This document shows positions 7,753 through 56,741 of a stretch of 64,000 bases of DNA, one piece after another. Source of the stretch: Paramacrobiotus metropolitanus (taxonomy: Eukaryota; Tardigrada; Eutardigrada; Parachela; Macrobiotidae); contig NW_026570478.1 of NCBI RefSeq assembly GCF_019649055.1, positions 25,012 to 89,011 on the forward strand, in the 5' to 3' direction. The position numbers and the translations under genes were made by a program. Numbering within the stretch: the first letter of the stretch is position 1; every line of letters begins with the position of its first letter. A model generated the notes under the pieces. That model did not search any database. It was not told the DNA's origin and saw nothing but the letters and a program-made list of their open reading frames with translations.

Positions 7753-8839
7753 TACTTTTGCTGAGTCACACTGATCTACAATATCAGGCGAGATGTTGAA
7801 AACAGAAGGTGTGTCGTCGTTAACGAATTCAGTAGTAGTATCGGTAGTTACTGTAACAGTATGATCAAGACTATTATTTGGCACAGTAACGGTGACTGGT
7901 GGTGCTGGTTCTACTGAAGCTCGTAGAACCGCTTTGTGGTCATCGTTATTCGCGGTGCTATAGTTCGTGACCGTTGCTGTAGATCCGTCAGACGCGGAAT
8001 CACTACAATTCGTACTCGTATTTGTAGGGAAAACATCAATACTCGTATCAGGTGCATTAATCGCTACTTGTGGTGCTGGTACTTCAGGTACTACGACTTC
8101 TGGTATTTCAGGTATTCCTAGTAAGATACCCTTTGTACGGAGTAGTGTAAGAGTGAGGCCAATTTCGGTTATTACTTTGTAATGATTGAACGCAGTTTGT
8201 GGGTAGTAGTTGTAATTTCTAGCCATACGATCTTGAATATCTTTTGGTAAAAACGACTTCTTTACTCTGTCTGGCTTTTCAAACATAATTTGTTCGCGGT
8301 ATAAATTAATACTGATTCTATGTTCTTTTAAAAAGTCAGCACCAAGGATTATAAATTCATTAGGGAGGCCGCAAACGATAAAGAATTTGTGTACGGTGTC
8401 TATTACTCCTACTTTTACAGTCGTACTAGTTGTGTATGTCTCCGGGCATTTAAATCGATCCGAAATAGTTGTGAAATGTAAATCAGATGCGCCTTTTGTT
8501 AAAATGAAAGAATTTAAGATTAATTTTTCTTGCTAAACTCTCGCTAATAATGCTGCAGCCTGCACCGGTATCGAAAAGTGTTCTGACCTCGTGGCCCTTT
8601 ACTATGGTCGGTGCATAAGTAGGTGTGCACGTAATAGGCATATCGTAGCTTGCATACGGAGACGCTTTAATTTTTTCTATATCGATGCTGTATACATAGG
8701 TTACTGTTTGTTATCCGGGTCGTGCTTTTACTGCAAAATATTCTGACAGAGTCGTACTTTTGGTCGCATCTGCTATGGTATGTGGAGGTGGTAATACACC
8801 GTCTGTACCTCCTTTCCAGAACGGCATCATGCGTTTTCC

Positions 8840-10668
8840 TTAGGTGTTGTCCAGAAGGTTTCGCCCATTTCATCTGAACGAACACAAAGGTCACGAGCCA
8901 GTTCGACTGCAGGATCAGTACCCGGACGTACTAGCTCGGTTACAGAACCGTCCAGCGGAACTACAAAAAGTGGAAAAAGAGTAAGGTCACCGACAAACAG
9001 CCCATCAGAAGCTGAGAAGAAAGGACAGCGGACCCAAAAGGTCACGACGAGTAAAGCACCACGGGCAAAACCACAGACACCGATTCCAGTGGGTAGTCAG
9101 AGTGTGCCACCCACGCCGTCGAACGCAGGACCAAAAGCGCTTCGATTTCCGAAATGCAGAAGTTTTACGGTCAAATATACCGGGACGGACCATAAGGAAC
9201 GGAAGGTCACGGCCAGGATAGTCGAGAAAGCAACAAATAAGGAAATCGATTCATACAATCCTTTAGCGGACAAATCAGTCAAAACCGAGATCGGGGAAAA
9301 GGCGAAGACAGAAGTCAATGAGGCGTTACAGTTCATCCCCCGGAAGAACGTCATAACCCAAGAGTTCTCATTCAGATGATGAAACACGTAGTGTCAAAGG
9401 TAGCGACCGAAGAAGATGCATGGATTCGAATTAAAGTGGGAACAAATGATGACCACTTGGCATATACATATACAGTGGACGGAAGGCTCCTGACAGCAGA
9501 AAGAATCCGCCCAAAATCGACGGCAGATCCTGACCCGAAAAAGCGAACAGCAGATGACTATGAGTCGATTTTGAAATATAATGATGCGACGTGCAGGAAA
9601 ACGACGTTTAAATTGGAATACGACGCCGATCCAGCGGAGATCATAACCGCGGTGATAGTTGATCAGATAACGGGAGACCCAATTCCTTTTGCACCATGGG
9701 ATGCATCAGATGAAAGCGCTCGTAATGCTGACCAAAAAGCTCGCGACGAATTGTGGAACCTCATACCACCAAGCGATCGTCAAGATCCTAAAGCTCATAA
9801 GAACACAATGATCAGTATGATGCGTCATCGAGCGGAAATGGATGGAGCTCATCTCCGAATAACAAAAAATATGAGTGATGGATCATACAAAACAGGGTTT
9901 TATGATGAGAAACTCAATCACCTATGGGAGATAGTGACACAACCACCAAAGGTGCCGACAGCTCATCTGGAAATAAACCCGGCACAAGAAAGTGGAGCCG
10001 GAGAGATGGCAGAGGCCTCCGTAGCCGAAGCGGCAGGAACGGAGAGTACCCAGCGACCATCGAAACAAGATGATCCAGAAGAAGAAGAAGGTGAAGGGGA
10101 TTCGACGGAAGAATCGACCGACGAAGATGAAGACGACGACATAGCCGAGGACGACAACGTTTCTCCAAAAGTTGTTGTTAAACCAAGTAAAGCGCCCAAA
10201 CTGGAACAAGCCATGAAGCGTGAAAAAGTTAACACAGGTGACTTCCTGAAGAAACGAAAGGAAGAAGAAGAAAAAAGGAAAAAGAGCGGCGATGACAGCG
10301 AGGATCCAAGCACCGGGAAAAAGAAAGCGGAGAAAAAGAAAAAGGATAAACCGTCTTCTCCCGATGTCGAAATCCTGAACGAGTCTGTTGCCGAAGTTGC
10401 AGAAAGGTCATCGACACCTACAACTTCAAAGAAATATGTGATTGAATCGGCTACATCAAAATCAAAGGTCACCGTGCCCGAGTCGCTTCCACAAAAGGGA
10501 AAGAACATAGCTGTGAAACAGCTTGTCCCAGTTGTAATCTCGGCATCCACTATAAAGGAGCGCAAGGAGAAAGGAAAGCGTGACAAGGCAAAACGAGAGA
10601 CGTCTCGTGAATCGGAAGCGTCGGAAGTGAGCCTACCAAGCACTTCAACGGTTAGCACAAGGTCATAA
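8840..10668 (+). pseudogene. Element A accessory gene X, middle part: duplicated unknown domain, then acidic and Lys-rich regions
   Basis: The frame is open from the left edge of element A, so its true start lies elsewhere, probably at 32199. A Ser/Thr/Lys-rich basic stretch (8840-9130) is followed by two diverged copies of a domain of about 110 residues. The first runs from CRSFTVKYTG (about 9155) to RLLTAERI (9500), the second from CRKTTFKLEY (about 9595) to HLWEIV (9935). A one-base loss at 9375 breaks the first copy at an ATGA overlap, where the second copy reads straight through. An acidic run (10075-10155) and Lys/Glu-rich segments follow, up to TAA at 10666. The same frame continues into the next feature. 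The domain is unknown to me. Together with the downstream part, a nuclear or chromatin-associated role is a guess. Confidence 0.6.
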
Positions 10669-12039
10669 CCGGAACATAAAACGGCCCGCTCAAGAAGCCT
10701 AGCGGAGGCTTTTTATAAAGGGAAGAAAGCAAAGAGTGAACCGGCAAAATCGAAAAAGAAAGGGAAGGAGGCCACTAAAATAGATGCACTGGCAATGGCT
10801 ACTTACACCGCACCAGACGGTGAGAGCGAGCTCGATTTCTCGGGAGACGAAGAGAAATTCGATGACCCTGATAATGACAACATGACCACAATAGATGAAA
10901 TCGTTGATGCGTACGACGGTGCTGAGAAAAATTTTACGCGGACAAGAACGGCACCGGTAACAGCGAAATTTAGAACGGGCCTGAAGAAGTATTTGAAAGA
11001 GAAACGCCGCAGTTTCACCAAACAGAAATTTGACGTAGTATTGGAATATGCGCGGAACGCGGGAAAACTCATTCAGAGACATCCGAACTTCGCTTATAGG
11101 GCCAAGCTCTTCAGACCAGCAAGTTCAGATAAGGCGCTGACAACTCCAAACGAGGACACCCAAATGCGAGTCGAAAGAGCAATCGCGGGGATGACAAGCC
11201 CGCTGGGATCTACGTGCCATAGGATCAGCCAATACATCAACGCTGTTTGGAATGACGGAAAAGGAGTGATAAAGGAACTTGACACGGCTACCGAACGCGT
11301 ATTACCGCGGATGATAAAACAGAATATCATTTCAACAACGAACGCACACAAAGGACTACCGATCCGATATACGCGAGTTGGTCTAATACCGCCAGAAAGG
11401 CAGACCTACTGTTATATGTCCGACAGCCAGGACATGGAAAAAGTTGTTGTTACGTTAAGTGGAGACCCCTCGACTTCTATACTGAATCAAATCGCACAGA
11501 AGACGGCCGAAGAGGAAGCCGCTCGGAAAAAGGCACAGACTTCGAGAAGGTCGAAAGTGAAAGGACCAATGGATGAGGAATCAGAAGAAAGTGATGACGA
11601 TACTATGACACAGACGCCCCTTGAACCGGCGAAGGATGACCAGCCTAAAGGTCAAGGAACAGCCGGAACTCAAACGAAAGGTCACGAGACTCCGCGAAAA
11701 GGGACGAAAGAAAAGGTCATGCTCCCAATGGGGAAAGCGGCGGCGGAAGCAGCAGCAGCTTCCGCGCGTCAGGTGTTTCAGAGGTCATTGTTCGTCCCAT
11801 TAAAGGACGTTTTCGAGAAGGAACGATCAAAGTCGGCGGGCGAACTGGGAGGTCATGTGACTCTACCGCAGGAAGAGAAAACAGTTGAACCGAAATCGGC
11901 TCAATCATCATCCGGGTCAGTAGGAAAGTTGACAATTGATGAGAAACGGACCCAAGAAACGGACCCAACGGACTCGGCAAAACCCCCCCAGAAAACGGAA
12001 CCAAAGAGACGACAGATTATTCACTCGGAGCACCGTTAG
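10669..12039 (+). pseudogene. Element A accessory gene X, continued: linker-histone-like winged-helix region
   Basis: The frame continues from the upstream part after a single TAA. An internal ATG is at 10795. After an acidic segment there is a helical stretch (FTKQKFDVVLEYARN) and then, at about 11160-11380, a segment whose spacing resembles the H15 winged helix of linker histones: VERAIAGM, GSTCHRISQYINAVW, ERVLPRMIKQNIIST and a basic wing. The rest is Lys/Glu/Ala-rich and probably disordered. The ORF ends at 12039, but the frame one base back is open from before 12003 and joins the next ORF, so a frameshift lies between, perhaps at the run of seven C near 11983. The fold call rests on pattern only. 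Confidence 0.5.
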
Positions 12040-12041
12040 AT

Positions 12042-12548
12042 GTGAATAATCGGACATGGAACGAAGTCCAAACTGCGCTACAGATTATTCGAGAAAAAGA
12101 AATGCTCGGTACGGATCTGAAAAGACAAGTCGCAGTAAACTCGAACGGAAGATCGTCACTAAACATGACTGAACGAGTCTTGAAACGGGCATATAAGGAA
12201 GAACGATTGGGATGTAAATATAACAAAGATAACAACAAGGTTATTTACTACCTCCCGAAACAGGGCCAGGAACGCACGCCCAGACTGAAAATGGAACTGG
12301 AGGCCTGGAAGATGGCCATTACAGATGTGGCTCTGGACGCCATTGGTGGTACCAACGGAGCGTCATGGGGCGACCTTTCAAATTTCATGGCTGTCCATTA
12401 TGAATTGGGAGAATTGAATATTGAAAACGATAAAGAATGGATCAAGAATGCCGTAGAAGCATTGATTGCAGATGAAGTGCTCCATATCAAACAGGACGGC
12501 CGAGTTGACTTCAAACCATATCAACCGCCGGCAAAGGAGTCTGAATGA
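12042..12548 (+). pseudogene. Element A accessory gene X, C-terminal part: two more winged-helix-like segments
   Basis: This is the C-terminal end of gene X. One segment (WNEVQTALQII, GTDLKRQVAV, MTERVLKRAYKEERLGC, KVIYYL) and a second (ITDVALDAIGG, GASWGDLSNFMAVHYE, WIKNAVEALIADEVLHI, GRVDFKPY) have the helix-helix-helix-hairpin layout of winged-helix domains. The second is the better match to H15. The first in-frame codon listed is GTG at 12042, and no good ATG fits, which supports this being the frameshifted continuation of the upstream ORF. It ends with TGA at 12546-12548. A DNA-binding role is inferred, not shown. Confidence 0.5.
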
Positions 12549-12906
12549 ATGGGACGCGTGTAATATGCAGCAAGTAATGAACCCTGCATATTACAGAAAA
12601 AGCATAAAATAGTTAAAAACGAAAGAGAAAAGTTTTACGGAAAATTAAGAGTGAAAAGGTCAACTCCAGAAGTAGCGACGATAAGACTAGCAGAAAAGGT
12701 CACAATAGTCAGATAGTGCTGATAACGTGAGAAAGGTCACCACGTTACAGTGATAGAATGGGCAAAAGGAGCTAGGAAAGTCTCAGCTCAGTAACGGAAT
12801 AGGCGTAAAAATGATAGAAAGCCTTGAAAGTCGATAGGAACGGAAAGGATTTACGCGGAAAGGTTATTATGTTGGATTGTTTTAATTGCAGATTCGAAAC
12901 GAAAAA
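12549..12906 (+). promoter_or_regulatory. Spacer between genes X and Y with three AAAGGTCA words and a splice acceptor
   Basis: No ORF is present. AAAGGTCA occurs near 12653, 12688 and 12731. A pyrimidine-rich tract and TTTTAATTGCAG end at 12891, 16 bp before the ATG of gene Y (12907). This looks like a 3' splice site that would give a spliced subgenomic mRNA for gene Y. Confidence 0.5.
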
Positions 12907-14142
12907 ATGGCACAAAAAGGTCAAGCCACTCCTAAAGGCTCAAGAACGGCATCAGAAATAGACAGATCTACGGGCTATAACCCAAAGTGTCCGGACTGTC
13001 TACGGAACAACAGAAAGGTCGACAAGAAATTCCCTTGCTACACATGCCTTCACAAGTTAGGTGATCCACATATCGTCTCACTTGTTTGGATCACGGAAGC
13101 CAAACGCGGGAACTTGGACGTTTTTCGAAACCTCATCAGTGCGAGGAATTATGGCAGCATCCCAGTAGATGAGCGAATGCTACTCGAGGATCGTTACCGG
13201 GAAGCGATCCAGAACAAAGAAAGCGGCTGGGATGAGACTTTGGAGCCGTTGAAAGGCCCCCAGACAGACGCATATCGAAAGAAGTTCGAGGCTGATCAGG
13301 AGAAGATGCGACTCCAGAAATTAGAAGATGAACTCCGTGCGAAGATTTATGCGGAGAACAAAAGAGCAAGCGAACAGGCCGCACGAGAGACGCTGTCCAG
13401 TTCGTCGAGTTCAGCTGTACCTACAGCCAGCCTTAATGAAGACGAAGTGCAGCTGATACGTCAGTCTCTCATCATTCAAATCGACACGTTAACGAATGAC
13501 CCGGCCGCTATGCCACAGGACTTATTCGACGCGCTGTTACGGGAAAAGCTAAGATTACAGAAAGGTTTTGCACCAGCGCCATACATAAAAAAGGCAGTCG
13601 AAGAACGTATGGAAGAGTTGCGCAAATCCCGTCAAACCGAAAGTAATGTCCTACAAGCGCTCAGAAGTTTTAAACGGGATGAAGGCTCTATACGACCTCG
13701 ATCGCCTCCGCATAGAGAAAGGTCACGCGGACATTCACGTGAACATGAGCGGACCTCTGAAAGACGAAGCGAAAGGTCACGCGAATACTCTCGTGAACGG
13801 ACACGGGATTAGCGTAGCGAAAGGTCACGCGAGCGTTCCCGCGACAGAGATTACCGTGGCGGAAGAGGATGGGTACGTCATGGAAATGAAATAACGGAGA
13901 CTAGCATTCAACGGAAAATTGATACAGCAAGGATTTTGACTGCAACAACAGGACGGGAAAAGCAACGGCGTGCGGAGGCATTCCGCACAGAGCCTGAAAA
14001 GGAAGGTCATCAGGTGCCGTTGGGAGTCCCATTCCGTAACCGCAATGTTCGAATGTCAACACCTGAAAGGTCATGGGACAAGAGACGCGAACGTACGCGG
14101 AACCGAACGCCAGACCCACAGGATAAAAGATGGCAGGAGAGC
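12907..14142 (+). pseudogene. Element A accessory gene Y, N-terminal part: CxxC zinc-binding segment and Arg-Ser domain
   Basis: The ATG at 12907 follows the splice acceptor. The first 60 residues contain CPDC...PCYTC, a possible four-cysteine zinc site. A charged helical region (about 13230-13390), a Ser run and another helical segment (13440-13660) follow. From about 13700 the protein is Arg-Ser rich (RERSRGHSREHERTSERRSERSRE), like SR splicing proteins. One TAG interrupts the frame at 13810, and the same frame continues RS-rich to 14142. Many AAAGGTCAC words encode the ERS tripeptides here. A role in splicing the element's own RNA is an inference. Confidence 0.55.
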
Positions 14143-14698
14143 TAAGTACTATGCTAGCTTCGAATCCGGCGCAAGCAAAAGGTCATCGAGCGCGGAACGG
14201 GAAGATTCACCCCCAAAGCACCAGCGAATGGAGTCAACGGTCCATGTGGTGGATCCCATCATAAGTGCCGCTCAGACCAGTTCAGTTGTCGAAGCGTCTC
14301 AAGAAAATGTGACTCATCGACGAAATGTAATTCTCGACAGCGACCCTCAACCGGCTTCATCGGCGAGTAATGAACCGCCGCAGCGGGAACTTGAGGAACG
14401 ACGCGAACAAGAAGTTCAGCGTGAAGCGGACAGCCGTCGCGTCAATGAACGACGAACGATTTCCCGATTTAATAACCGACACCCCGACATAATTGATATG
14501 GAATATAATATGAACGATATCGACGAACAAACGGTGGAAATTTGTCGATACTTCGGCATCGAGAATGATTCGGTCGAAGCTAATAAAATTGGCACAAATT
14601 TGAATCAGCTGCACCAATTTTTACTCGATTCTGGGTACGCGAGAGAGATTAAGAGGGGAGTGGAAGAAGGAACTTTCCGTCGGTTACATTCCTCGTGA
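14143..14698 (+). pseudogene. Element A accessory gene Y, middle part
   Basis: A frame change near 14145-14160 joins the RS-rich part to this reading, which starts in sense around ASFESGASKRSSSAERE. It contains a charged stretch (RELEERREQEVQREADSRR), then a helical segment with QTVEICRYFGIEND and TNLNQLHQFLLDSGY. It ends with TGA at 14696. No known family is recognised. Confidence 0.45.
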
Positions 14699-15613
14699 CT
14701 CTGCGCGAGATTGTTATCTCCCCATCCGACGAAATGGTTTACACAGTTTGGTGGACTTGAGCTTATTAGACGTGCCATTGGACACGACTGACCCTGTCGG
14801 GATGACACAATTCTATCACACAGACTATGATGAACGACAGGAATATGTGGCTCAGTTCGTTTTACGGCATGTGAATCCGGCCTTCTAGTTGCTTGCAGAG
14901 CATCGATCGGATTACAGGTGGATCCGAAAGACTATGCCGCAAAAAGGATGGGGCAAAAGGTCTTTGCTGCGAGACTGGCGCATTATAAGACACAGAACCA
15001 GTTGGTGTCTAATACAATGAAGGACGATATCCCGCCATTTTTCCGACCTCATGTCATTAAGTTGGGAGAGCCTATGGAACATGTTGGAATAGCCCACACG
15101 GCTTGGAAGGCGTTAAAGAAGTGTGGGACACGAATGGAAAAGGGTAACCTTACACGGCGCCATGCCTCCCAAGTGGAAGAGCGAATTAACCGGATTAAAG
15201 ATACCATGGGAAGCGACTATGTGGAACCAGTGGACGGAGTAGACGTCTACGTTAACGAATTTCTGGTCAACAAAGGCGACCGACGCCCAGAACGCGCTCC
15301 TAACCAAATAGGACGACGCGGCTTGCGAAACCAGCAGCTTCGCGAAAATCTCGCCGATGTACAGCGTCGGTAAGCGGATGACCCTAATAACCGAAGACTG
15401 CGGTTGGAAGAAAATGACGCACGCCATCGAGTCGAGGCGGTTAGACGCAGTCGCCAAGGGAAAGGTCGTGGTCAGCGTGCAGTTGACCCAGAAAAGGTCA
15501 TGGCAGTTGATTCAACGGAACCAGTTGACCGTACGTCCGACCGTAATCAACCGGAAAGTACCAAGAAGCGCCCGCCGAAAGACGGCGAGGAGGATTCAAA
15601 TGAAATGGAATAG
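14699..15613 (+). pseudogene. Element A accessory gene Y, C-terminal part
   Basis: A decayed reading (about 14700-14890, SLLDVPLDTTDPVG, FVLRHVNPAF) changes frame into 14918-15373, a predicted helical and basic segment (RMGQKVFAARLAHYKTQN, TRRHASQVEERINRIKDTMG). After one TAA at 15371 the same frame continues as a basic disordered tail to 15613. I infer at least two breaks. Neighbouring spacing and the shared AAAGGTCA words (about 15490) make it part of gene Y. The function is unknown. Confidence 0.4.
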
Positions 15614-15786
15614 TGTTGATCGTTAGGATCACACTATTAAAAGGACGTCTACGGCATTTGTCGGTGCGTCACAAAAATGAAACATGGTGTTGTATATGAG
15701 GGCGACATGACATATTATTATAAACTGTATTCGTGTATTTGTTGTTTTCAGCGTTTATGGCACAGAACCGCAAAGGATAAAGAAAT
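15614..15786 (+). promoter_or_regulatory. Spacer with a splice acceptor
   Basis: A T-rich tract and TTTGTTGTTTTCAG end at 15751, a good 3' splice-site consensus. No long ORF follows. Spliced RNAs ending downstream would carry the 190 bp repeats in their 3' part. Confidence 0.35.
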
Positions 15787-16265
15787 CATGTGGAGTAGCG
15801 ATGGGGGTTAAAATTGATTCGGTCTACAAAGCCGGCCCCAAGGGAGTAGTTACGGCAGTTAGCCGGCTCTCCTCTTTAAGCGACTCAATGTTACAAATCG
15901 GCAAGAGAGACTACGGTTATCAAGCCGGATCTCTTGAAGACGAAAGGGGGCCACAAGCGGCGAAAAAGAGAAAGACAACAGGTGGAAATATTAATGGGGT
16001 TGAATTTGATTCGGTCTATTAGCCGGCCCCATCGGAGATGCTACGGTAAACTATGCCGGCCATCTCTCTATACGATTCAGTGTCAAAACTTAACGAGAGA
16101 ACTAACGGTAATCAAGCCGGATCTCTCGTACGGAAGCTGGGCCACAAGCGGCGAACAAGAGTAAAAGATTTCATGTGGAAGCGTCATGGGGTAAATTTAA
16201 TGCGGTAGTTAGCCGGCCCCATCAGAGATGTTACGGTAAACTCTGCCGGCACTCTGGCCGCTCGA
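15787..16265 (+). repeat. About 190 bp tandem repeat, 2.4 diverged copies
   Basis: Units start near 15787, 15982 and 16172. Shared strings include TTGATTCGGTCTA, TAGCCGGCCCCATC, GCCGGATCTCT and GGGCCACAAGCGGCGA (15951, 16138 and again at 18026). Copies differ by many substitutions. The CCGGC blocks occur in both orientations, so local RNA pairing is possible. Confidence 0.75.
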
Positions 16266-16289
16266 GGCATATTGAAGTTGGATGTGCGA

Positions 16290-16800
16290 CGGAAAGGTCA
16301 ACTTGAAAGTTTTACCAGGGAGGCAAGCAAAGTGCTTGAAAGTCGGCAAAAATCGGCTAAGTTCCTCCATGACCTATAATGGAAATTTGAAGTGAAGATG
16401 GATGACCTTTGGAATCACTATTACCCAACAGAGTCATTGTATTGAACTTCAAGTCGCATGACCTTTTAGGACCATTAACCCAAAACGAGCCGCACATCTC
16501 AACGGATCATCTCAATAAAGGATGACCTTTACCAGGGTGGAAGCGAACTACGCTTGTCTTCATTGACGTCCCTCCATGACCTTTATGGATCTCATTTTTA
16601 AGTCGTACAATTGATACGCACCTTATTCCAAAGAATGAAGCAGTATTCTTAAGTCGTATTCGATACGCACCTGATTCTCAAGCGGATTGTGATGAAAGTC
16701 GCATTACGGATGCGCGAAATTGCTCAACGGAGCGGAATGGGCCAATGTGCGGAAAACGGTGGACAAAACCTGTGACCTTTACGAGTCAGAAATGGAGGAT
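16290..16800. promoter_or_regulatory. Non-coding cluster of AAAGGTCA/TGACCTTT words
   Basis: One AAAGGTCA (16296) and at least five ATGACCTTT or GTGACCTTT copies (about 16399, 16450, 16520, 16575, 16770) lie in 500 bp with no supported ORF. A second small repeat, GATACGCACCT, occurs twice near 16615 and 16665. This lies just upstream of the LTR-like region. Confidence 0.6.
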
Positions 16801-17780
16801 CCTTGTCTACATTTTGATTAATACTTTTGTTGATCTGTTTAACTGTTGATTTGATAATATTTTTATAATTGGATCTCTTTATTCACATCGTATTAAATGG
16901 AATTGTGCCTTATGGAATTGATGTGATATGATAAATGGAATAAGAGGATTTGATGTTTTTGAGCACGCACAGACACCGGCGACCGTCGTCTTTTCGTGGA
17001 TTCGGGAGTGTGTTGAGCCTCACAGGAGCTCGGCATCCCCCCAGAGGCATGTGAGACGAGGGCTCACTAGCGTTCACGCCTGTGGCGCTAGGCGCTACGC
17101 CATGGATTACGGTCTGTGTTGTGTCTCGCTTCTGATTGGTTGACGGCTATAGCCGTTCATTGTGGTCTGTTTTGTGGGCGCGGCATAGCACGTGCTGCAC
17201 AGTGTGGAATTGGCTCCACGTTTTACGATCGAGCTGCGCCGATCACTTGTTGATTTTCTGTGCTCCAGACTTTCAATATTATTAAAAGTCAGCTATGCGC
17301 GGTGCGACGTTTTGTGTTTCCGCATAGTTCGCTACACTTATCGCGTAGCTCACTCCACAGGATAGATCCCGTTTTCTGTCTCTGTCTCTGGATCCATTCT
17401 GGATCTAGCATTAGAGTCCGAAACGAAATCGATTCACTCAACTCATTAACGGCTATATGTGCCGGGTGTTCTACGGATCGTTTTATCGGACCGGATAAAG
17501 TACAGGTGATGTGAAAATGGATGTGATCTGCTGGTGTGCAGTTTTCCTTGTGAATCTTCCATTACAGAGAATAAGATGTTTTGAGCTGATATTTGAAGTG
17601 AGATTCTTCTTTGCCTTATTTTTGTTTTCCTTTCATAAGTACTTGCAGGGCGGATTTTTGTGTTTGATATGCCTTGCATTCTGTGATAATTAAGAAACTT
17701 CAATGATTATTTTTGAATTTTCCACGCCACTAGTGTTTGTGGTTTTATAAGACTGAATAAAATGCAAAAGCTGTTGTCCT
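16800..17780 (+). promoter_or_regulatory. Probable single LTR region of element A
   Basis: This is placed by analogy with elements B and C. An AT-rich stretch is followed by a GC-rich promoter-like part (inverted CCAAT, CTGATTGGTTG, near 17132; GC box-like GGGCGCGG near 17176) and an AATAAA signal at 17755-17760. Gag starts 1.5 kb downstream. No second copy lies elsewhere in the window, so LTR identity and limits are unproven. A spliceosomal acceptor-like CTGTGCTCCAG ends at 17268. Confidence 0.35.
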
Positions 17781-17872
17781 TTTCACCGAAGACGTTTTCA
17801 TAACATATGTTGTTACGCACACCACAAGCGGTACAACTCCATCGGAACGCGGATTTTCAGCTTTGGTTTTCG

Positions 17873-18400: not shown

Positions 18401-18559
18401 TCTAAGTGGACTAACGCTATTGGTCAGTTATCTGAGTTGTGATTGGTCGAAAGTTGAACAGAGTAATTTGAATAAGCGGACCAATAGGAACGAAGTAAAC
18501 AACATAAATGAGGATTTTCCGTTGAACTTGAGCTGTAATGGGACATTTGAATTGAAACG

Positions 18560-23046: not shown

Positions 23047-23099
23047 AGACGCCGGTGAGCCTACTGATCGCCCCGACCCTAAACCACCGGATAAAAGGG

Positions 23100-23853: not shown

Positions 23854-26411
23854 CACTGCAACGGAAGGAAATATGGCAAAAAGTGGCCTATAGACCAAAT
23901 GGGAATCACAGGATGTGGATTCCCGTAACGCCGAAAGCGAAACAGAAAGCTGGAATGTCACAAGAAGACTACTGGGACATGCAGGAATTGCGATCGCAAC
24001 ATGAGAGAAAACGACTGGAAGAATTGGTTACAGGGAAACCAGTTAAAAGGTCGAACTCTGTCCCAATATTCAACGCAACCGAATACAAGAATGCACAAGC
24101 TGACCTGAATAACCCGCGAAATGCACCGCCGGGAGATAAACCGTTAAATTACGGAGAAAAAGTTCCCATACAAAAGTTGTCCAGCGGCGGATTTGTCATG
24201 AAGCACAACGAAAGGTCACAGGACTTAGCGCAGAAGGAACAAAAAGGACGGTCAAATGAAATGGCGCAAACGCAACAGAGTAGCGCGACAGAAAGGTCAC
24301 GGGACTTATCACAAGCATTACAGAGAGATGCCAATAATAAGTCACCAACTAGAACGGACGGGATGTCTTCGCAAATTGATCCGACGAAAACGAATAACGA
24401 AGTATCAGCGAAGGTGATTGAATGGATGACTCAAAAAGGATATGATATGGTTACATACGAAAGGTCACCAGATGAGATGGGAGACAGTGAAGAAGATGAA
24501 TTGAAACGGGCTGACCAGATAACAAGCGAAGTCATTGAGAAGTTGCGGGATAAACGAAATGATGACCGTAAAGAAGAACTGATCCATCAGACGATAAGCG
24601 AAATGACTAAAAGCCATGTGACCAGCACAAAAGCGAAGAAGCAAGTGCTGCAAGAGCCACAGAAATTTTACGATGTCCGAACAAACGTGCCACACAGGAT
24701 TTATAAATTGAGTGAAATACAGAAAGGTCACAGCACTCAGATGAAAGGGCAAGTGCTTCCCGACACGGATCCTGGACCAGTATCGCTCATTCCTGTGAAA
24801 TGTAAGATTCACACACTGAAGATTCAGAATGGAAAACTACCCAAACAAATTGAAGTGTACACTCACGAAGTGAAGGTGGGAGATATAAAGGTCAACGCGA
24901 TGTTGGATACCGGCGCTGAGACGTCGTTGATCAGCAAACCATTCTGTGAGAAAAATGGACTTCATATGCTCCCATTGCCACCAGACAGACTGGTGAAGAT
25001 AAATGGAATTAGCGGAACGTCAGGATTCTTGGTGACACATTACTGTGTAGCACCAGTGACCTTAAGAGAAAAGACTAGCGAACATTCATTCTACGTCCGA
25101 CCGAAGTGTGACGACGTACATGTGCTGCTGGGATTTGACTTCTTAGAGAAGAAATTCGTATTGATGGATAATGAAGGGGAAGAGGAGACAGAAGATGACC
25201 CGAAACCAGTCGCCAAAGTTCAAGTCGGAAAGGTCACCGAACTTGCTCAAACGGCTAATAAAACGCTAATCCCAGTACCAAAGGCACAGGGAAAAGAAAA
25301 GAAAAAGACGACGCAAAAAGAATTGTCAACATTGGAGCAGTTGAAAGTGATCCAACAGGAGATTGAGAATACATTAAATCGGACACTGCTGACACAAAAG
25401 GGGAGAGAAAAGGTCATCCCAGTACCAGAGGCACCGGGAATGACAAAAGTGCAGCGGAATGTGAAAGCGCAGCAGCAAGAAATTATCCCAGTACCAGAGG
25501 CACTGGAAAAGAAAAACGAAAATGAAAATGTTGAAAAAATTATCCCAGTACCAGAGGCACTGGGCAAAGGAAACGAAAGGTCACCAGTGACAAATACTGC
25601 AAACTTAGTACCAGAGCCAGATCCGAAAAACGCCAATACGACCTTTTTCGAACCACGCCCTCCCACGGTAAATAAAAATGGAAATAAAGAGAGAGTTATC
25701 CGTATACCTGAGGCACTGGGAAAAGAAATTCAAAGGTCACCAGTACCAGAGCGTACTTCGAATCTTTTCGAACCACGATCTGCTACCGAAAATGAAAAGC
25801 TACAAGCTAAAGCCAAAGAAGAAGTAACAGAACGTGACTCTCAAAAGGAACCCTTTTTCCAACAACACTCTGCTATTATTGACGAAAGGTCACCAACGTT
25901 TGAAGAGATAGCTGCCACACAGAAAGAAGCATTAGCTGCAGCGAAACAATCGCTCGTGCCTGACTTGGAGTGGGCAAAGCCTATCCCAGTACCAGAGGCA
26001 CTGGGAATAAAGACGGCTAAAGTGTGGAAGGACAAAAAGTGCGAAAGGCTACGAGTACTGAAACGAATAGCCGAAGAGGAACAGATGTTTACGAGTGAAA
26101 TCCGCAACAAGGCGATAGAACAATTGAAAGGTCACCAAGTGAAAAAAGAACCAGAGGTCATTGAATTATCCTCTGACGAAGCAAGCGTGACCCAAGTTGA
26201 GCGTGAGCACGGTGCCACAGTACAAGAAAGCAAAGATGTTAATCCACAAACGGTTAAAAGGGTACTAACGTTGGAAGAACGGATAGGGAGTTGTCACCAC
26301 GGTTACTACGAGGATCCGTGCAGAGTACAGCCTCAATGGGAATGTGCTGAATGTCGTGACAATGCCTCTCAAGATGACCTCCGGAATGGCCGAAATGCAA
26401 CGCTGCCATAG
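23841..26411 (+). CDS. pol: Element A aspartic protease and long linker with IPVPEALG repeats
   Basis: Open for 856 codons. An N-terminal basic region with NERSQ/TERSRD repeats is followed by the retroviral-type protease at about 24850-25170: AMLDTGAETSLISKPFC (catalytic Asp at 24906) and the later VLLGFDFLEKKF hydrophobic motif. From 25260 to 26010 the linker repeats IPVPEALG-like peptides about seven times and FEPR-type peptides three times. Near the end is a cysteine/histidine cluster (CHHGYY, CRVQ, CAEC), a possible zinc site. It stops at 26411 and RT follows 57 bp later in another frame. The start codon is not an ATG, so it was probably made by frameshift. Confidence 0.8.
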   Translation: MDAVTLQRKEIWQKVAYRPNGNHRMWIPVTPKAKQKAGMSQEDYWDMQELRSQHERKRLEELVTGKPVKRSNSVPIFNATEYKNAQADLNNPRNAPPGDKPLNYGEKVPIQKLSSGGFVMKHNERSQDLAQKEQKGRSNEMAQTQQSSATERSRDLSQALQRDANNKSPTRTDGMSSQIDPTKTNNEVSAKVIEWMTQKGYDMVTYERSPDEMGDSEEDELKRADQITSEVIEKLRDKRNDDRKEELIHQTISEMTKSHVTSTKAKKQVLQEPQKFYDVRTNVPHRIYKLSEIQKGHSTQMKGQVLPDTDPGPVSLIPVKCKIHTLKIQNGKLPKQIEVYTHEVKVGDIKVNAMLDTGAETSLISKPFCEKNGLHMLPLPPDRLVKINGISGTSGFLVTHYCVAPVTLREKTSEHSFYVRPKCDDVHVLLGFDFLEKKFVLMDNEGEEETEDDPKPVAKVQVGKVTELAQTANKTLIPVPKAQGKEKKKTTQKELSTLEQLKVIQQEIENTLNRTLLTQKGREKVIPVPEAPGMTKVQRNVKAQQQEIIPVPEALEKKNENENVEKIIPVPEALGKGNERSPVTNTANLVPEPDPKNANTTFFEPRPPTVNKNGNKERVIRIPEALGKEIQRSPVPERTSNLFEPRSATENEKLQAKAKEEVTERDSQKEPFFQQHSAIIDERSPTFEEIAATQKEALAAAKQSLVPDLEWAKPIPVPEALGIKTAKVWKDKKCERLRVLKRIAEEEQMFTSEIRNKAIEQLKGHQVKKEPEVIELSSDEASVTQVEREHGATVQESKDVNPQTVKRVLTLEERIGSCHHGYYEDPCRVQPQWECAECRDNASQDDLRNGRNATLP
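25260..26010 (+). repeat. Dispersed IPVPEALG peptide repeats
   Basis: The DNA string ATCCCAGTACCAGAGGCACT, or a close variant, occurs near 25270, 25428, 25488, 25545, 25700 and 25984. Element C has the matching peptide SIPIPEAS twice (about 60058 and 60275), although its DNA differs. Conservation of the peptide suggests a short linear motif, perhaps a processing site. Confidence 0.75.
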
Positions 26412-26467
26412 CAGATCTTAAAGGTCATGTCCAAAAAGAACTGAAAAGCATAATACGAACAAACGTA

Positions 26468-29400
26468 ATGTGGAAACCACACATTGAACGATATCATTGG
26501 AATAGATATCGGGCATGGTTATCAAGCGTAAAGAACTTCATAATGGGGAGAGGAAAATGGTTAAACCATTGGCAACAACGTGCGGATAATGGATACCAAG
26601 ATCCCCTTGACCCAGTAAAAACGGAACGGAAACTTGAAAGGGAAATGGAAGAAATGAATGAAGAAGTGCAGTTATGGGAAGAAGCAAGGATAGAACTGTT
26701 CTGGGACTTTCGCATAAATCATATGTATAAAGGTCAAGGAAGAACAGTCATATTCCCGACAGGACTTCGTACACCGGTATACGAGTACGTTGTGATGTTC
26801 TGCAAAGCACTAAAAGAAGACAACTGGGACATATTTGACAAATATTGGACGAAATTTGAAGCGGACATCCCTATATTTGATACAAAAGAGATGCAAGAAT
26901 TACAAGTAACCCGGAAAAGAAGGTTACCGGGATCACTGGAAAAGAAAAAGGTGACATTTGCACCCGATCCAGATGGAGTTGATTATCCTGAACGGGGAGG
27001 AGATACGTGGTGCATGTACGAAACAATTCCAAGTGATGATTGGGTCACCGAAGAACTGATGGCAAATTGCGTCTTTGTTGGTCCCAAACGACCTAAAGGG
27101 TATGAAACGGCCCAACAGGACGAAGACGATAAAGTGACTGTAAAAGAAGCAGAGAGAAAGGAAACGGCTAAAGAAACAGTCGAAGGAGGATCGAATGAAA
27201 CGGAGGAATCGTTTACGTCAGCTCTTAACATTGCAAAGATGCTAACGGACAGAGGTGAAATGTGGAGGAAATTCAAAGAGGAGGTGAAAAGGATATCAAA
27301 TGAACAGCAAAACCCAGTAACTGAGGCAAAAAACGGGAAAAGGTCACTCGATAACGGTGAGGAATGTCCGCCGGTCGAGTCGACCGAAGAGCCATTAATG
27401 AGCCTTGAAGAAATTGACGAACTGGAAAAGTCAAATCAAGAGGAACAAAGGTCAAACTCTGATCAGTCAGAAAGGTCATCAACGAGAATACGAGTAGCAA
27501 GGAGTCATCCCAGGATCGCTGCACGAAATGGAAGAAAAGCAAAAGAAGCAGACAAACCTCTACTCAAAAATCCAAAAGCGAAAAAACTTAGCGATCTACG
27601 GGAAAACGAAAGTGACCTTTCATCAGAAGACGAAGGAGTTGACGAGCGCCCGCTTGAAGAAGCTAACAAAGGTCAAGCAACTGCACAAGAATATGAGAGC
27701 AGTAACTCAGACTCGGAGTGGACGAGTTCAAGTGATAATTCAGCGACTTCAGAAGATTCAGGTGTAAGTGACCTTTCGGAACAAGAAGACTTACTGGACT
27801 TGGACGAAGATGACGAAGTGGACGAAGAAAAAGAAAAAGAAATAAAAGTCAGAAGATTGAAAGTGGAAAAAGCTAGACTGTCGAAAGATGTGATTAAAGT
27901 CTACAGCGACCAACGAATTAAATTGAAACCGTCAAACTGCACACGTGTAAAGGTCAAGATGGGAAAATATGCGCCGGCTCAAAACAAGTTGATGTTCACA
28001 CCGGTCCCACAAATCGAAACTGACGTGCAGCCGTTAGCAGGAGTGACGGACCACAGAGGAAAATATTTCGAAATCGTCATTGCGAATCACAGTAGCAAAT
28101 ACCAAATCGTAAAGAAAAATCAGCTTCTCGGCTACGTTGAACCGTATGAACATATGGAAAATGTAAAGGTCAACGCTGGGACAGTAAAGAATGTACTCGA
28201 AGATCCCGAGGTGGATGACACGACTAAAGCGGAATTGACAAAGATAATTGGAAATTTGAAGCTAGGACCTGACCTAACTGAGGAACAGAAGAATGACGTG
28301 TATAACGCCTTCTGGGAATTCTGGAAAGTCCTACCGACATCGAAGAAACCGTATGGGGACGTGAAAGGGGTCACTCACGTAATTGACACGGGAGATGCGA
28401 AACCAGTCAAATGTAATCCGGCCAGAACGAGTTGGACAGGCCGTGAGTTCATAATAAAGCACATAGAAGAGATGTTAGCACAAGATGTAATCGAACCGTC
28501 AGACGCCGAGTGGAGCTTTCCAGTTGTGTTGGCAGTTAAGAAAAACGGCGACGGGACAATGGGAACGAGATTTTGTGTCAATTACATCATGCTGAATAAG
28601 CTAACGAGAAAGAATAATTACCCGCTACCGAATCCAGATGAGTTGCTCGACGCGTGCGCAGGCAACAAATATTATGGAAAAATGGACTTGCAAAGTGGAT
28701 TCTGGCAGATCCCAATGGATCCAGCGTCAATCAACAAGACGACCTTTGTAACACAAGACGGAATGTACCGATTTAAGAGAATGCCATTTGGAGTTTGCAA
28801 CGGGCCAGCAACATTTCAATTGTGCATGGACAAAGTATTGTCCAAAGCGAAAAGAAAGGGTTGTGTTTTCGGTTACATTGATGACGTTATCTTCGCCGGA
28901 AAAACTTGGGCGATATTCATGCAGAATTTTAGAAACGTCTTAATGAGTCTAGTTGAAGCGGGATTCACAATAAAGCCAACTAAGTGCGAGTTCGGAATGA
29001 GACAAATGGGATTCCTCGGTCACATACTCAGTGAAGACGGAATCAGAATGGATCCGGAAAAGGACACCGCGGTCTCAGAATTCAAACGGCCTCAAACAGA
29101 ACGACAGTTAAGGTCATTCCTCGGATTGGCGAATTATTATCGAAAGTTCATAATGGGATATGCACAGAGAAAGTGTCATCTGTATGAGTTGCTGAGACAA
29201 GACAAGCAAGTGAAAAAGGACTGGACAAAGATACATGAAGACGAATTCAACAGTCTGAAACAATTGTTATGCGAAGGCCCGGTATTGGCAAAATTTGACC
29301 CGACAAAACCGACTGTAATTGAATGCGACGCGAGCAAAGAGGGAATCGGAGCGGTCCTATCACAAGAAGGTCATCCGATTGCGTACGCTAGTCGCGTCTT

Positions 29401-29755
29401 ACATGGAGCAGAAAGAAATTACGGCGTAATGGAATGGGAATGTCTGGCAGTGGTATTCGCTGTCAGAAAATTCAAGCAATTTATTGACTATGCGGAATTC
29501 ACCGTACGAACGGATCACCAGGCACTGACCAACTTGTTAAGGTCAGAAACGAATAAAGTTTTAATGAACCCGCGCCTGACAAGATGGGCGATGGCATTGC
29601 AAGGTCACCAGTTTAAAATTGAATATAAACCGGGAAAGTACTGTGACAATGCAGATGCGCTATCAAGAGCACCAATTGAAGGTCCAACTTGTCAAGAGGA
29701 GGAATTCGACGAGATTCCGAATTTTGAGGATTATAAGAAGGAATTCGACACGTAA
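26468..29755 (+). CDS. pol: Element A reverse transcriptase and RNase H with an extra N-terminal domain
   Basis: Open for 1095 codons from ATG 26468. The first 200 residues form a charged helical domain (RYRAWLSSVKNFIMGR, LEREMEEMNEEVQLWEEARI) also present in element C. An acidic disordered region (about 27400-27860) and a beta-rich segment ending FEIVIANHSSKYQ...LLGYVEP (27930-28145) follow. RT runs at about 28380-29000 with RFCVNYIMLNKL, LQSGFWQIPMD, MPFGVCNGPATFQ and the active site YIDD (28874). RNase H covers 29280-29680 with DASKEGIGAVLSQ, and RTDHQALTNLL. All main RT motifs are intact. A TAA at 29753 ends it, although the frame stays open beyond. Confidence 0.93.
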   Translation: MWKPHIERYHWNRYRAWLSSVKNFIMGRGKWLNHWQQRADNGYQDPLDPVKTERKLEREMEEMNEEVQLWEEARIELFWDFRINHMYKGQGRTVIFPTGLRTPVYEYVVMFCKALKEDNWDIFDKYWTKFEADIPIFDTKEMQELQVTRKRRLPGSLEKKKVTFAPDPDGVDYPERGGDTWCMYETIPSDDWVTEELMANCVFVGPKRPKGYETAQQDEDDKVTVKEAERKETAKETVEGGSNETEESFTSALNIAKMLTDRGEMWRKFKEEVKRISNEQQNPVTEAKNGKRSLDNGEECPPVESTEEPLMSLEEIDELEKSNQEEQRSNSDQSERSSTRIRVARSHPRIAARNGRKAKEADKPLLKNPKAKKLSDLRENESDLSSEDEGVDERPLEEANKGQATAQEYESSNSDSEWTSSSDNSATSEDSGVSDLSEQEDLLDLDEDDEVDEEKEKEIKVRRLKVEKARLSKDVIKVYSDQRIKLKPSNCTRVKVKMGKYAPAQNKLMFTPVPQIETDVQPLAGVTDHRGKYFEIVIANHSSKYQIVKKNQLLGYVEPYEHMENVKVNAGTVKNVLEDPEVDDTTKAELTKIIGNLKLGPDLTEEQKNDVYNAFWEFWKVLPTSKKPYGDVKGVTHVIDTGDAKPVKCNPARTSWTGREFIIKHIEEMLAQDVIEPSDAEWSFPVVLAVKKNGDGTMGTRFCVNYIMLNKLTRKNNYPLPNPDELLDACAGNKYYGKMDLQSGFWQIPMDPASINKTTFVTQDGMYRFKRMPFGVCNGPATFQLCMDKVLSKAKRKGCVFGYIDDVIFAGKTWAIFMQNFRNVLMSLVEAGFTIKPTKCEFGMRQMGFLGHILSEDGIRMDPEKDTAVSEFKRPQTERQLRSFLGLANYYRKFIMGYAQRKCHLYELLRQDKQVKKDWTKIHEDEFNSLKQLLCEGPVLAKFDPTKPTVIECDASKEGIGAVLSQEGHPIAYASRVLHGAERNYGVMEWECLAVVFAVRKFKQFIDYAEFTVRTDHQALTNLLRSETNKVLMNPRLTRWAMALQGHQFKIEYKPGKYCDNADALSRAPIEGPTCQEEEFDEIPNFEDYKKEFDT

Positions 29756-30376
29756 GAACCAGCAGCTGAAATTGAACAGTTGTTCTTACAGATGGTGGAA
29801 CAACGAGAAAAACGTTTAAAGGTCACCTCAGCTACGGCGAATGAGTCGGCTGAATCAGAAGTGAAAGTGAACCGTGTAAAAAGCTGGTTGCCAAAGGTTA
29901 GTGACTTAAAGGTCACCGGACTTAAACGGGATCGGAAGCTCAAAATGGAAAGGTCACCGGACTCAATGAAGCATTGAAACAGAGATGACCTTTGGGAAAC
30001 GGACAAAGTAGCACAAGCATTGAACGAGTGCCCTATAAAGCTGTTGCGATTCCCGAAACAGATGAAAAAGAGGTATAAACCGCTACCACGCTGTAAGGTC
30101 ATTAAAGATTGGAACGAACTCAGTACGGCGACAGTTCGCATCGTCAACCTACAAGGAGATGAGGAAGAGGAAGACGACTCGAACTTGCAGTTGCGAAATA
30201 AACAGTTGAAAGATCCCCATTTGGCAATGATGATAGACGAATTGGAACATCTACCAGATGCTGAGACAAGATCGAAATTTGAAGTGCACTATCAGTTATG
30301 GAATGGCATATTATACCGAGTAAAGGATAAAAATGGGAAACTTGAAAGGTCATATGTAGTACCGTTGTCAATATGA
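29756..30376 (+). pseudogene. pol: Element A RNase H to integrase linker
   Basis: This is the same frame as RT after the TAA, interrupted again by TGA at 29975 and TGA at 30374. It contains VTSATANESAESEVK, an acidic patch and the block LKDPHLAMMIDELEHLPD, which matches the minus-strand fragment at 1227-1538. YQLWNGILYRVKD near the end is the usual lead-in to the integrase zinc domain. The TGA at 30374 lies where tryptophan would fit. AAAGGTCAC words at 29818, 29908 and 29949 are read in-frame. Confidence 0.75.
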
Positions 30377-31341
30377 AGAGCGTTCATCCACGCATTGCAC
30401 GACGAGAAAGCAGCAGGCCATTTGGGATTCGAAAAGACACTGACAGCAATCCGACTTCGATATTACTGGGACAGGATGAGTACAGATGTGAAGAATTACA
30501 TACTCGCCTGCCAAGGATGTCAGTTTCGAAAGACACCGAGAAAATGCCCACCCGGAAAACTGCAAGAGATAAAAGTTGGACATCCATTCTTCCGAGTCTA
30601 CGCGGACTTGAAAGGACCGCTTTTGCCAACGAAGAAACGCGGATATAAGTACATAGCAGTATTCATCGATCAACTGACCAAATATGTGATATCAGTACCG
30701 ATGAAGACGGCAACGGCTAAAGAGTTCGCGAAGTGTTCGTAAAGCACGTGATATTGGTACACGGAGCACCGCACATTCTACATACTGATCGCGGACGACA
30801 CTTCACCGCCGAAGTATTGGCAAAGGTCACCAATGTGTTCAAGATTAAACACACGTTTGGAACGGCGTATCACCCAGAAGGTCAAGGCCAAGTTGAAAGA
30901 CAGATGCAAACTATTGCGGATGGCTTAGCACAATATCTGAAAGCGGGAAATGAAAGGAAGTTCAACAAATATCTCCCATATGTTATTTCAGCAATGAACC
31001 GAGTCGTACACGCTACAACCGGATACTCAGCATATTATATGTTGCACGGCAGAGAAATGACAATGCCGGAAGATGTGGTCACAAAGACGAATATCCCAGA
31101 CGATTATGGGACTCCCGATGAATGGGTAGAGACCATGAAGAAGAACTTGACCTTTGCAGAAGAAGTGGCCAAATGCAATATAAAAGATGCTTATGAAAAG
31201 AATGCGGAGATATACAATAAGAGGAAGTCGGAACCGAACTTTAAAGTGGGCGACTTTGTATTGATACGACTACCAAAGGACACGAAACAAGGAAAGAAAG
31301 AAAACCAGTCGGACTTTAAGTCAAAATGCGATAAAGTGTGA
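30377..31341 (+). pseudogene. pol: Element A integrase
   Basis: The H2C2 zinc region is HALHDEKAAGH ... ACQGC (30390-30520). The catalytic core has YADLKGP (first Asp, 30600), HTDRGRHF (second Asp, about 30786) and GQGQVERQM (Glu, about 30893), with the expected spacing. A C-terminal module begins FKVGDFVLIRLP (31240). A one-base loss near 30735 shifts the frame inside the core. TGA at 31339 falls where W would be expected (KV-stop-KILSF). The copy is therefore dead although every motif is readable. Confidence 0.85.
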
Positions 31342-32073
31342 AAGATTCTCAGTTTCGCGCGAGCAAACGAAGCGGAGGTCATCGAGCAGAACCCGAAGAA
31401 AGAAGCGGACTTGAAAGTGGTCTCGATTGATCGTCTGAAACCATGGCACCCTCCGTTGCCGGATGAGGAAAAAGGAACAGTAGAAAGAGTAACAGAGCGT
31501 ACTCAAAAAGATTTGGATAAATCTTTTTTCGAACCACCTCTGCTGCCCGAAATGGAAAAAGTAAATGAAAACGAAACCGAAGAAGTCGAGCATGCTTCGA
31601 AAAATAGCATTAGTCAATTTTTCGAACCACGCTCACTGCTACCTGATATAAGCGGAGACAAACCAAAAAAGAAGAGAGAGAGACCAAGAAAAGAGGATAA
31701 AGACTTCGAAACTGCAGTAACACAAAAGTTGAACGCAGAAGCTGGAAATCTGGTAGAAAGGTCATTGGAAAAAGATATGGAAGTACCAGAGCGTAATTCC
31801 AAAAAGGACTTACAACAATCCTTTTTCGAACCACGCACTGCTAGCGATAATGAGAGGGACCTCATACAAAAGAGAAAGGAGGAAATAGAGGCGGTCAAAT
31901 CAAAAGCTGAACAGTTGGGCCGCGACATAGCGAAAGCAATCGATGAGAGAAAGGTCAAACAGAAGAAAAAGAAACTAACTCCTACAGAATTGTTGACCCA
32001 GAAAGGTGAAGTTGAAGATGCTGCCGACAAAGAACTCCTTGATCGGATAACTAAAAAACGCAAAAACAGATAA
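31342..32073 (+). pseudogene. pol: Element A pol C-terminal tail with FFEPR repeats
   Basis: This continues the integrase frame. LKVVSIDRLKPWHPPLP is the usual end of the integrase C-terminal domain. About 200 Lys/Glu-rich residues follow, with KSFFEPPLLPE, SQFFEPRSLLPD and QSFFEPRTASDN at about 31520, 31615 and 31820. The same FEPR motif occurs in the protease linker. It ends at TAA 32071. Confidence 0.65.
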
Positions 32074-32198
32074 CCCACATAGATATGAATAAGGGGTTCA
32101 CTTCACTAAAGATAGGAGTTGGGAAGGTGTAAAAAGGTCATCACCGTTATAAAAGCTAACCAATATCGTTTCATTGTTACAGAAGGTAAGCACACTTA
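32074..32198 (+). promoter_or_regulatory. Spacer before gene X with TATA box and splice sites
   Basis: An AAAGGTCA (32132), TATAAAA (32148-32154) and ACCAAT precede TTTCATTGTTACAG (ends 32182). That acceptor is followed three bases later by the donor-like GTAAGC, then ATG at 32199. Either a private promoter or splicing could supply the gene X mRNA. The AG-AAG-GTAAGC layout could also be a microexon or recursive splice site. Confidence 0.45.
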
Positions 32199-33437
32199 AT
32201 GGACAGATTGGACCGACAAAACTCAGATAATTCTGACTCGGAAATTATTGAAAATCCGTTAAAAGCATCCACCCCTAAAAGAATGGAAGGCGAATATGGC
32301 TATGACATCTCATATGGTGAGGGGTCGACGTCGTCAGTAGGAACGGCGCAGAACGAACCCGGAACGGTACAAGGAGGACCTTATGGTGGCCCAGGGTATT
32401 ACGGGTATCCTGGACAGCCGACAAGTTATCAAGATACAGTTAACTGGGTGCACCACGGCTCGACTGCCGGAACCCAGTACACAGAACAAGCGATGTACAA
32501 TGCCCCTTATCAGCCGTATCCAGGAGCGTACACCCCACCAATGGGACCATCGCAGGTGATGATGGGATCGGCAACAATGTTGATGCCGCCACCGCAACAG
32601 ACCACACCGAGCAGATTCATGGGACATAGCGGATTTAGCGGAATGGTGTCAACTCCAGTACAGTCTCAAAGAGCATCCCCGATATTGCCACCCTTTCCAG
32701 CAACGGGAGGTCTGTCATTGTCGGACATTGGATCACCTCGCTTGAGATCACCGCAACAATTAGGAGCGCAACGGCCTCACCGAAACTCGCCACAAAAAGA
32801 AGAGAGGCGAGGAGGCAACAGATTTGATTCACCACGACCGCGAGGTATGTTGCCATCACTGGGCCCCAATTTAGAGGAGATCGGACCAGATGGACTACGG
32901 GCAACGCCTCCAGGCGAACCGTCAGTGCATGAGTACGCGCCAAAACTCTCTTTGCATCTCAGAGAAGATGACGCGCGTTTGAATGTGATCGTGGACAAAG
33001 AGGAAAAATTGACGGAAACGGATAGAGGGGCAATCCAGGATTTTAATAGGATGTGCCGTGACCTTTACAGAATTCACATGAGAGTTGAAGATGAACATGG
33101 ATGGTATGGGAAGTTGATTAGCCTGGAGGCAGTCATCAAACCATGCCATATTGCATCGAATGGGAAAACGAAGCTAATCGAAGCAAAGCGCAAAGAATTA
33201 GCGATAAAGATCGCATCTATGTGGCAGTATCACCCGACAGTAAAGGGCAGGCAATGGCCATGGATTATTGAGAAGGTCCTGAGATACCTTAAGGTGTTCC
33301 CGGAGGAGAAAATGATCCCAGCAACCAGCAGTGCGGGACCATCCGGATCGTTAGCCGAAAAAGCAGCCTCAGTAGATGAGATGTCTGACAGTGACCTTTT
33401 AGAAGCAAAAATAAAAGTCGATGCTGAATTGACTGAA
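32199..33437 (+). CDS. Element A accessory gene X, N-terminal part, cut at the right edge of element A
   Basis: ATG 32199 opens 413 codons before the element ends. Residues 1-110 are acidic, then Gly/Tyr/Pro-rich low complexity (GGPYGGPGYYGYPGQP), and a Pro/Arg/Ser-rich stretch follows to about 32930. A predicted folded segment (32940-33300: LSLHLREDDARLNVIVDKEE, MCRDLYRIHMRVED, KRKELAIKIASMWQYHP, WIIEKVLRYLKVF) precedes an acidic end (DEMSDSDLLEAKIKVDAEL). Past 33437 the reading enters element H. The frame would join the open frame at 8840 if element A were circular. No known family is recognised. Confidence 0.6.
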
Positions 33438-56740: not shown

Positions 56741-56741
56741 A

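Follow-up and report, generated by a model that had tools for sequence, protein, structure and literature searches.

What acts on one short DNA word, repeated through the genes of a retroelement in every reading frame, is the question raised by a 64,000-nucleotide stretch (the window) of contig NW_026570478.1 of the tardigrade Paramacrobiotus metropolitanus. Element A, a Ty3/gypsy-type long terminal repeat (LTR) retroelement, is present here as one full-length, circularly permuted copy with a single LTR (window 8876-33437). Between 8837 and 33437 it carries 57 exact copies of the octamer AAAGGTCA and 30 of its inverse TGACCTTT, a total of 87 words against ~2 expected; the element's own order-2 Markov model predicts 1.5 and 0.3, respectively. 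The remaining 39.4 kb of the window holds one of each, at 41434 and 50180. These counts bear out the initial annotation, made by a model from the letters, which had reported more than 50 and about 30 words in the element, one of each elsewhere near 41435 and 50180, and an enrichment far above chance. The word is strict, since the commonest of its 24 one-letter neighbours occurs only 7 times with both strands summed, and the mild neighbour excess lies mainly at the first and last letters. The base that follows is 34 C, 12 A, 11 T, and 0 G for forward words of element A and 22 C, 6 T, 1 A, and 1 G for reverse words, G following 1 of 87 overall. Pooled family loci, some of which overlap or are the window itself, give 235 C, 63 T, 39 A, and 3 G in one tally and 209 C, 57 T, 28 A, and 1 G in the other. 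The extended word is AAAGGTCAH, where H is any base but G. Genome-wide, AAAGGTCA occurs 42,562 times on both strands, compared with 15,522 for its reverse-read control.

Codon choice in the genes of element A follows the word. For each open reading frame (ORF), sites where synonymous codons could spell the word were compared with sites that carry it, across 13 window ORFs, excluding the smaller frames at 8795, 11943, and 23095; neighbouring ORFs overlap by tens of bases, and some possible sites may count twice. The word is present at 39 of 53 possible forward and 7 of 10 possible reverse sites, against 3.2 and 0.3 expected from synonymous-codon shuffles. Forward words are distributed over the codon phases as 10, 16, and 13, and reverse words as 2 and 5 over the two phases possible, consistent with the earlier statement that all reading frames are used. 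Permuted-letter octamers (85 with at least 10 possible sites, among up to 150 drawn) occupy 76 of 1242 possible sites, and reversed control words in the 13 ORFs reach 4/11 and 1/8. Seven other pieces (L027, L028, L052, L037, L038, L056, and L057) carry the word at 93/118 forward and 20/25 reverse sites, and 19 mutually dependent gag loci at 160/187 and 59/63; L007 and L027/L028 are one and the same copy, on C9. Coding opportunities are taken up to a similar degree on the two strands, so the signal is strand-symmetric, and the forward-word excess in genes is mostly a matter of opportunity.

AAAGGTCAH is kept by purifying selection at the nucleotide level along the body of this retroelement superfamily. 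The gag comparison used 19 of 60 matches, with 40 of 185 first-look candidates scored; the 19 copies share ancestry, their comparisons are not independent, and control octamers come from the same alignments. Against these copies, which are 73-82% identical, 127 of 148 comparisons find the gag word intact, compared with 10,797 of 50,652 (21%) for other octamers. Synonymous codon identity is 96.5% (362/375) where the third position lies in a word and 64.4% (8,461/13,144) outside. Together with the use of coding opportunities, this supports the proposal that selection acts on nucleic acid and not on protein. Words are kept at 20/23 places in the ORF2/ORF3 region of the C103 copy (34% of control octamers), at 19/20 and 29/32 in the C9 pieces, gag included (31% and 35%), and at 9/13 in L038 (14%) and 4/7 in L037 (11%). 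Copies with and without a given word carry octamers of the same length there, some at least 3 letters apart, so the copies differ by substitution; this speaks against one recent tandem expansion, which the initial annotation had named as an outcome that would refute its view. At 20503 and 21968, several copies carry octamers ~3 letters off, and 0 and 1 of the 19 copies, respectively, are without a gapless alignment.

The words fill the body of the element and leave its LTR free. From the LTR to 18500, the 19 aligned copies contain 0 words in 22,104 bases, compared with 235 in 54,154 bases of gag. The spacing of the 63 body words is Poisson-like (coefficient of variation of intervals, 1.09); the positional periodicity suggested for checking yielded nothing clear at 3, 10, 10.5, 11, 147, 165, 180, or 200 bases, and element A has no opposed word pairs of the NurRE type within 12 bases of each other. 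Noncoding clusters each lean to one strand. The leader cluster at 18579-19206, part of it a 30-bp tandem array, contains 17 of the 30 reverse words of element A, and its counterpart across the 19 aligned copies has 216 reverse and 0 forward words; the 3' untranslated region (UTR), from 15371 to 17048, has 5 reverse and 2 forward words, and the 3' stretch of the C9 copy has 21 forward and 1 reverse. Most coding words have unrelated flanks, with three (25409, 25576, and 25732) lying within or next to a degenerate 70-106-base repeat, 73-77% identical.

We read the word as a predicted double-stranded DNA site for a protein that the element family itself would supply and that would load along the element, its job most likely being anti-silencing self-marking; we put the probability of this reading at roughly 0.43. 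The sequence-specific protein could load on the integrated copy or on the cDNA, and the strand symmetry of the signal favours a reader of double-stranded DNA over Gag-RNA packaging. A reader supplied by the family appears more likely than a host one, given that related copies sharing these nuclei have shifted toward a looser word, RAGATCR, at part of the same positions. Its task would most likely be to mark element chromatin against silencing, by analogy with the VANC proteins of VANDAL elements, and candidate readers are ORF3, which has a conserved four-cysteine module, ORF2, and Gag. More tentatively, the word may be a self-identity code written into the whole length of the double-stranded element, in which a strict 9-base word running through the genes would be read by the element's own DNA-binding protein and a related lineage would form a separate recognition group in the same nucleus.

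On a 14-row reverse transcriptase (RT) tree, the original word is present in three pol lineages: the window clade (L056 and L057, 13-16 words per 4 kb; L028, 52 in 9.5 kb), the basal row L037 (13 per 4 kb), and L038 (11). Seven rows (L036, L050, L051, L053, L054, L055, and L058) have 0-5 words per 4 kb. These seven related copies, with their looser enrichment, are the only ones answering to the word-lacking copies that the initial annotation had named as evidence against its view, and all 19 closely aligned copies carry the word. One of the seven, the C6 copy, is 89% identical to element A in its RT piece and only 28-61% in the aligned gag, ORF2, and ORF3 pieces. Its coding sequence (20.5 kb) contains RAGATCR, or [AG]AGATC[AG], 53 and 17 times per strand against 20.4 and 7.2 in codon shuffles, an enrichment of ~2.5-fold on both strands; the corresponding figures are 5 and 1 for window element A (9.2 and 3.1 in shuffles) and 8 and 3 for each of L053 and L055 (2.3/1.5 and 2.7/0.9). 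The C6 copy keeps the original word at 2/8 and 4/16 places, against 13% and 7% of controls. Of the aligned places where element A has a word, 6 of 13 in gag (16 of 21 listed, with the word in at least 7 copies; 3 unaligned) and 5 of 21 in pol show an in-register AGATC in C6, and 2 of the 21 in pol retain the original. A word shift in the C6-type lineage is likely, not proven.

Several observations weigh against a family-supplied, self-marking reader. Among the ORFs scanned with Pfam, none yields a convincing DNA-binding domain, and the structure predicted for an ORF3 piece is of low confidence (pLDDT 63), too poor for a fold search. The words fill coding DNA, whereas VANC motifs are noncoding. 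The pattern RAGATCR was picked after inspecting the data, its enrichment is modest (z ~9; top hexamer GAGATC, 7.3; others up to 5.5), and conservation of AGATC among related copies is raised only mildly. The C6 coding sequence also retains a weak excess of AAAGGTCA (6 and 0 against 1.0 and 0.2 expected; z 4.4). Word-bearing L038 and the seven shifted copies form one supported eight-row group, whose poorly resolved inner branching is compatible with different numbers of word shifts. Occupancy is lowest in the ORF2/ORF3 piece of the C103 copy, at 16/21 forward and 1/4 reverse sites. Finally, the word is unchanged across lineages only 36-50% identical in a fast-evolving pol segment, a stability unlike that predicted for a rapidly co-evolving reader.

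That stability across diverged lineages suits a host receptor better, and recruitment of one is the alternative that survives best, doubtful as we consider it. Judged by its letters, the word would be an NBRE, bound as a monomer by tardigrade NR4A (HR38-type) and serving as a distributed enhancer or in nuclear access of the cDNA. A host NR4A DNA-binding domain lies on C45:296815-298439 in three exons, with an A-box read as GRRGRLPTKPK. In element A, the two bases before AGGTCA are AA in 87 cases and CA in 5, which disfavours a receptor of the ERR/FTZ-F1 type. A known NR4A2 matrix carries a 3' C. The NBRE is the NR4A monomer site, and AAAGGTCA equals this complete 8-bp site letter for letter (PMC10419244); an exact NBRE and a host NR4A with its A-box are both present. 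The proposed link to a host receptor accordingly survives in sharper form, the mere AGGTCA half site giving way to a full 8-bp NBRE and a host NR4A gene. Precedent comes from HIV, where NR4A2 is reported to act through an NBRE in the LTR, there silencing the virus (PMC9295971). The cases described in these papers (PMC10419244, PMC9295971) share with element A the identical octamer and a host receptor, with one precedent in a retroviral LTR, and differ in being single sites or pairs in regulatory DNA. Against recruitment, the 19 aligned copies are free of the word in the LTR, where a promoter site would be expected, and in the 0.8 kb that follows. Within this host, related copies have largely abandoned it, it is missing from element B and from a 2.4-kb stretch belonging to a third gypsy group, and ~80 sites, each strongly selected, meet no obvious need in enhancer action.

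It is improbable that the word nucleates a protein coat on the double-stranded cDNA or the proviral body of the element itself, for packing or as a shield against self-integration, with the LTR ends left free for integrase. Such a coat would suit a double-stranded, body-wide signal with Poisson-like spacing, LTR exclusion, and a very long cDNA; the dense leader clusters, however, are not specially predicted. Less probable again is a signal at the RNA level, either Gag packaging sites or pairing of leader TGACCTTT with body AAAGGTCA in genomic RNA. Every word in the leader is reverse, as are most in the 3' UTR, and coding words are mostly forward; Gag has a zinc knuckle and an RGG tail, and the C103 piece uses only 1 of its 4 reverse opportunities. 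The coding strand bias is nevertheless mostly opportunity in all three sets counted above, and, the C103 piece apart, neither the window ORFs nor the seven other pieces have the sense-strand specificity expected of a dispersed packaging signal. RAGATCR is enriched on both strands as well, and the C9 3' cluster is forward. The initial annotation had offered Gag-RNA binding and a host silencing tag as options, and both are weakened. A tag by which the host would recognise and silence the element is very unlikely: NR4A2 is reported to silence HIV via such a site (PMC9295971), but purifying selection keeps the words, also in a copy with identical LTRs. An artefact of mutation or copying, for instance tandem expansion or conversion, could account for the tandem part of the leader cluster and for the three coding words at the degenerate repeat and can be dismissed for most coding words, which have unrelated flanks, occupy all frames, and differ between copies by substitution. 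Taken as a whole, the earlier interpretation is partly supported.

The window contains one complete copy of element A opened at an internal point, because 33437 runs into 8876 elsewhere and an empty host site exists at C67:133599|133600, ending at window 8875. The span first proposed, 8837 to 33437, holds at its end, while its start moves to 8876. The same contiguity rules out two truncated copies sharing an LTR. At the joint of the permuted copy (window 8860-8890 and 33425-33440), 2-3 bases are repeated, with no clear host duplication. Element A looks as if a one-LTR circle had been inserted. Aspartyl protease, RT, RNase H, and integrase follow in gypsy order, the integrase match being a weak fragment.

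Coordinates of element A features and word clusters in the window
Feature	Position	Strand	Basis or remark
Element A	8876..33437	+	33437 joined directly to 8876 in other copies (e.g. C167:24253/24251)
18 forward AAAGGTCA words	8886..16300 (8886 to 16293)	+	mostly in ORF2/ORF3 pieces
ORF3 pieces	12886..15370	+	single 916-aa frame in C103 copy
ORF3 CX2CX12CX2C module	~12988-13047	+	kept between A and C6
3' UTR cluster, 5 TGACCTTT	16403..16780	-	word positions
Word-free zone: end of 3' UTR, LTR, early leader	16781..18578	.	word positions
LTR, only one in window copy, without word	17049..17415	+	matches two 343-bp LTRs of C9 copy
Leader cluster of 17 TGACCTTT directly upstream of gag, in part as 30-bp tandem units	18579..19213	-	word positions
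gag region, three open frames	19240..22871	+	relatives' frames longer
39 forward and 8 reverse words, gag through ORF2	19581..33399	.	word positions
Gag CX2CX4HX4C zinc knuckle	~22524-22565	+	in gag region, with RGG-rich tail
Aspartyl protease domain	24867..25148	+	PF13975, E 7.7e-08
Reverse transcriptase and RNase H	28538..29602	+	PF00078, 1.5e-24; PF17917, 2.7e-33
Integrase core fragment	30721..31338	+	PF00665, 9.6e-05; weak, under curated cut-off
ORF2, first part	32190..33437	+	resumes at 8876, to ~12545; single 1633-aa frame in C103 copy

The C9 copy is a canonical insertion of ~17.9 kb, with two LTRs identical to each other, a TGG-starting sequence after the 5' LTR where a primer-binding site is expected, and CTAA on both sides, as in a short target duplication, provided that the LTR is taken to begin with TGTGAG; being permuted, the window copy has only one. 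By DNA comparison, the C9 copy is without most of ORF2 and ORF3. In their place stands ~1.4 kb of decayed sequence (L028:7423-8801) with 22 words, ~16 per kb. Relatives of one ORF3 piece (P0121-P0128) bear host-type names in public records in seven of eight cases, comprising four named RNA-binding protein 25-like, two with other splicing names, and one fray2-like, perhaps owing to their RS-rich tails.

Element B (window 52000-64000) is a second gypsy element of high G+C, its pol DNA 66% identical to that of element A. The candidate AGCCTCGG is frequent in element B and was rejected as its own word, being kept at 3/10 places in three copies 78-79% identical, against a baseline of 23%. The longest frames of L063 (B family) and of L064, a 2.4-kb stretch of a third gypsy group, contain neither AAAGGTCA nor a comparable word. 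Between the two elements, a small LTR-like repeat (49169-50539) has two ~290 bp arms, 91% identical, and encloses an 8-bp array of the TCAGAACG type with ~76 units (49512-50143). For this repeat with its array, 132 genome matches are listed, some of them close together (C406 and C59). The TCAGAACG array was rejected as the word of a large element, as it belongs to the small repeat and was not linked to any large one. Related inverted-repeat arrays of the GCTATTTTGCCGCAGC type lie at 35304-35468 and 48709-48818, and a 79-bp tandem repeat (3.7 copies, 91% matches) lies at 39528-39838.

Codon choice in element A is fixed at dozens of sites by selection for a DNA word, which points to some reader of the element's double-stranded DNA along its length. 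Element A also provides a clean example of codons chosen to meet a DNA-binding requirement. Self-versus-host recognition and silencing resistance of mobile elements become testable with one short probe. If the host receptor were the reader, this would be a retroelement whose coding sequence has become a receptor array. Among the titles and abstract openings covered by a partial literature search on tardigrade LTR elements, on AAAGGTCA, the NBRE, or overrepresented octamers in retroelements, and on AAAGGTCAC with NR4A, nothing describes such a system.

Three further known systems invite comparison. Bacterial DNA uptake words are likewise strict, strand-independent, genome-wide, and placed inside genes, but they serve uptake by competence machinery, and we know of no competence-type uptake route for such an element. 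The Drosophila gypsy insulator, with about a dozen sites in the leader between LTR and gag and a host zinc-finger reader, shares with element A repeated protein-binding sites in that part of a Ty3/gypsy leader; its sites are confined to one place, whereas those of element A also fill the genes. In Arabidopsis, VANDAL elements and their VANC proteins form anti-silencing systems with a short repeated word (PMC5735166). Like element A, they combine a strict short word, repeated in a mobile element and partly in tandem, with family specificity within one genome; on the element A side the repeated word is family-specific, its second word RAGATCR being weak. They differ in being DNA transposons with noncoding words and a known reader, whereas element A is an LTR retroelement whose words run throughout coding DNA, 39 forward and 7 reverse in the 13 window ORFs.

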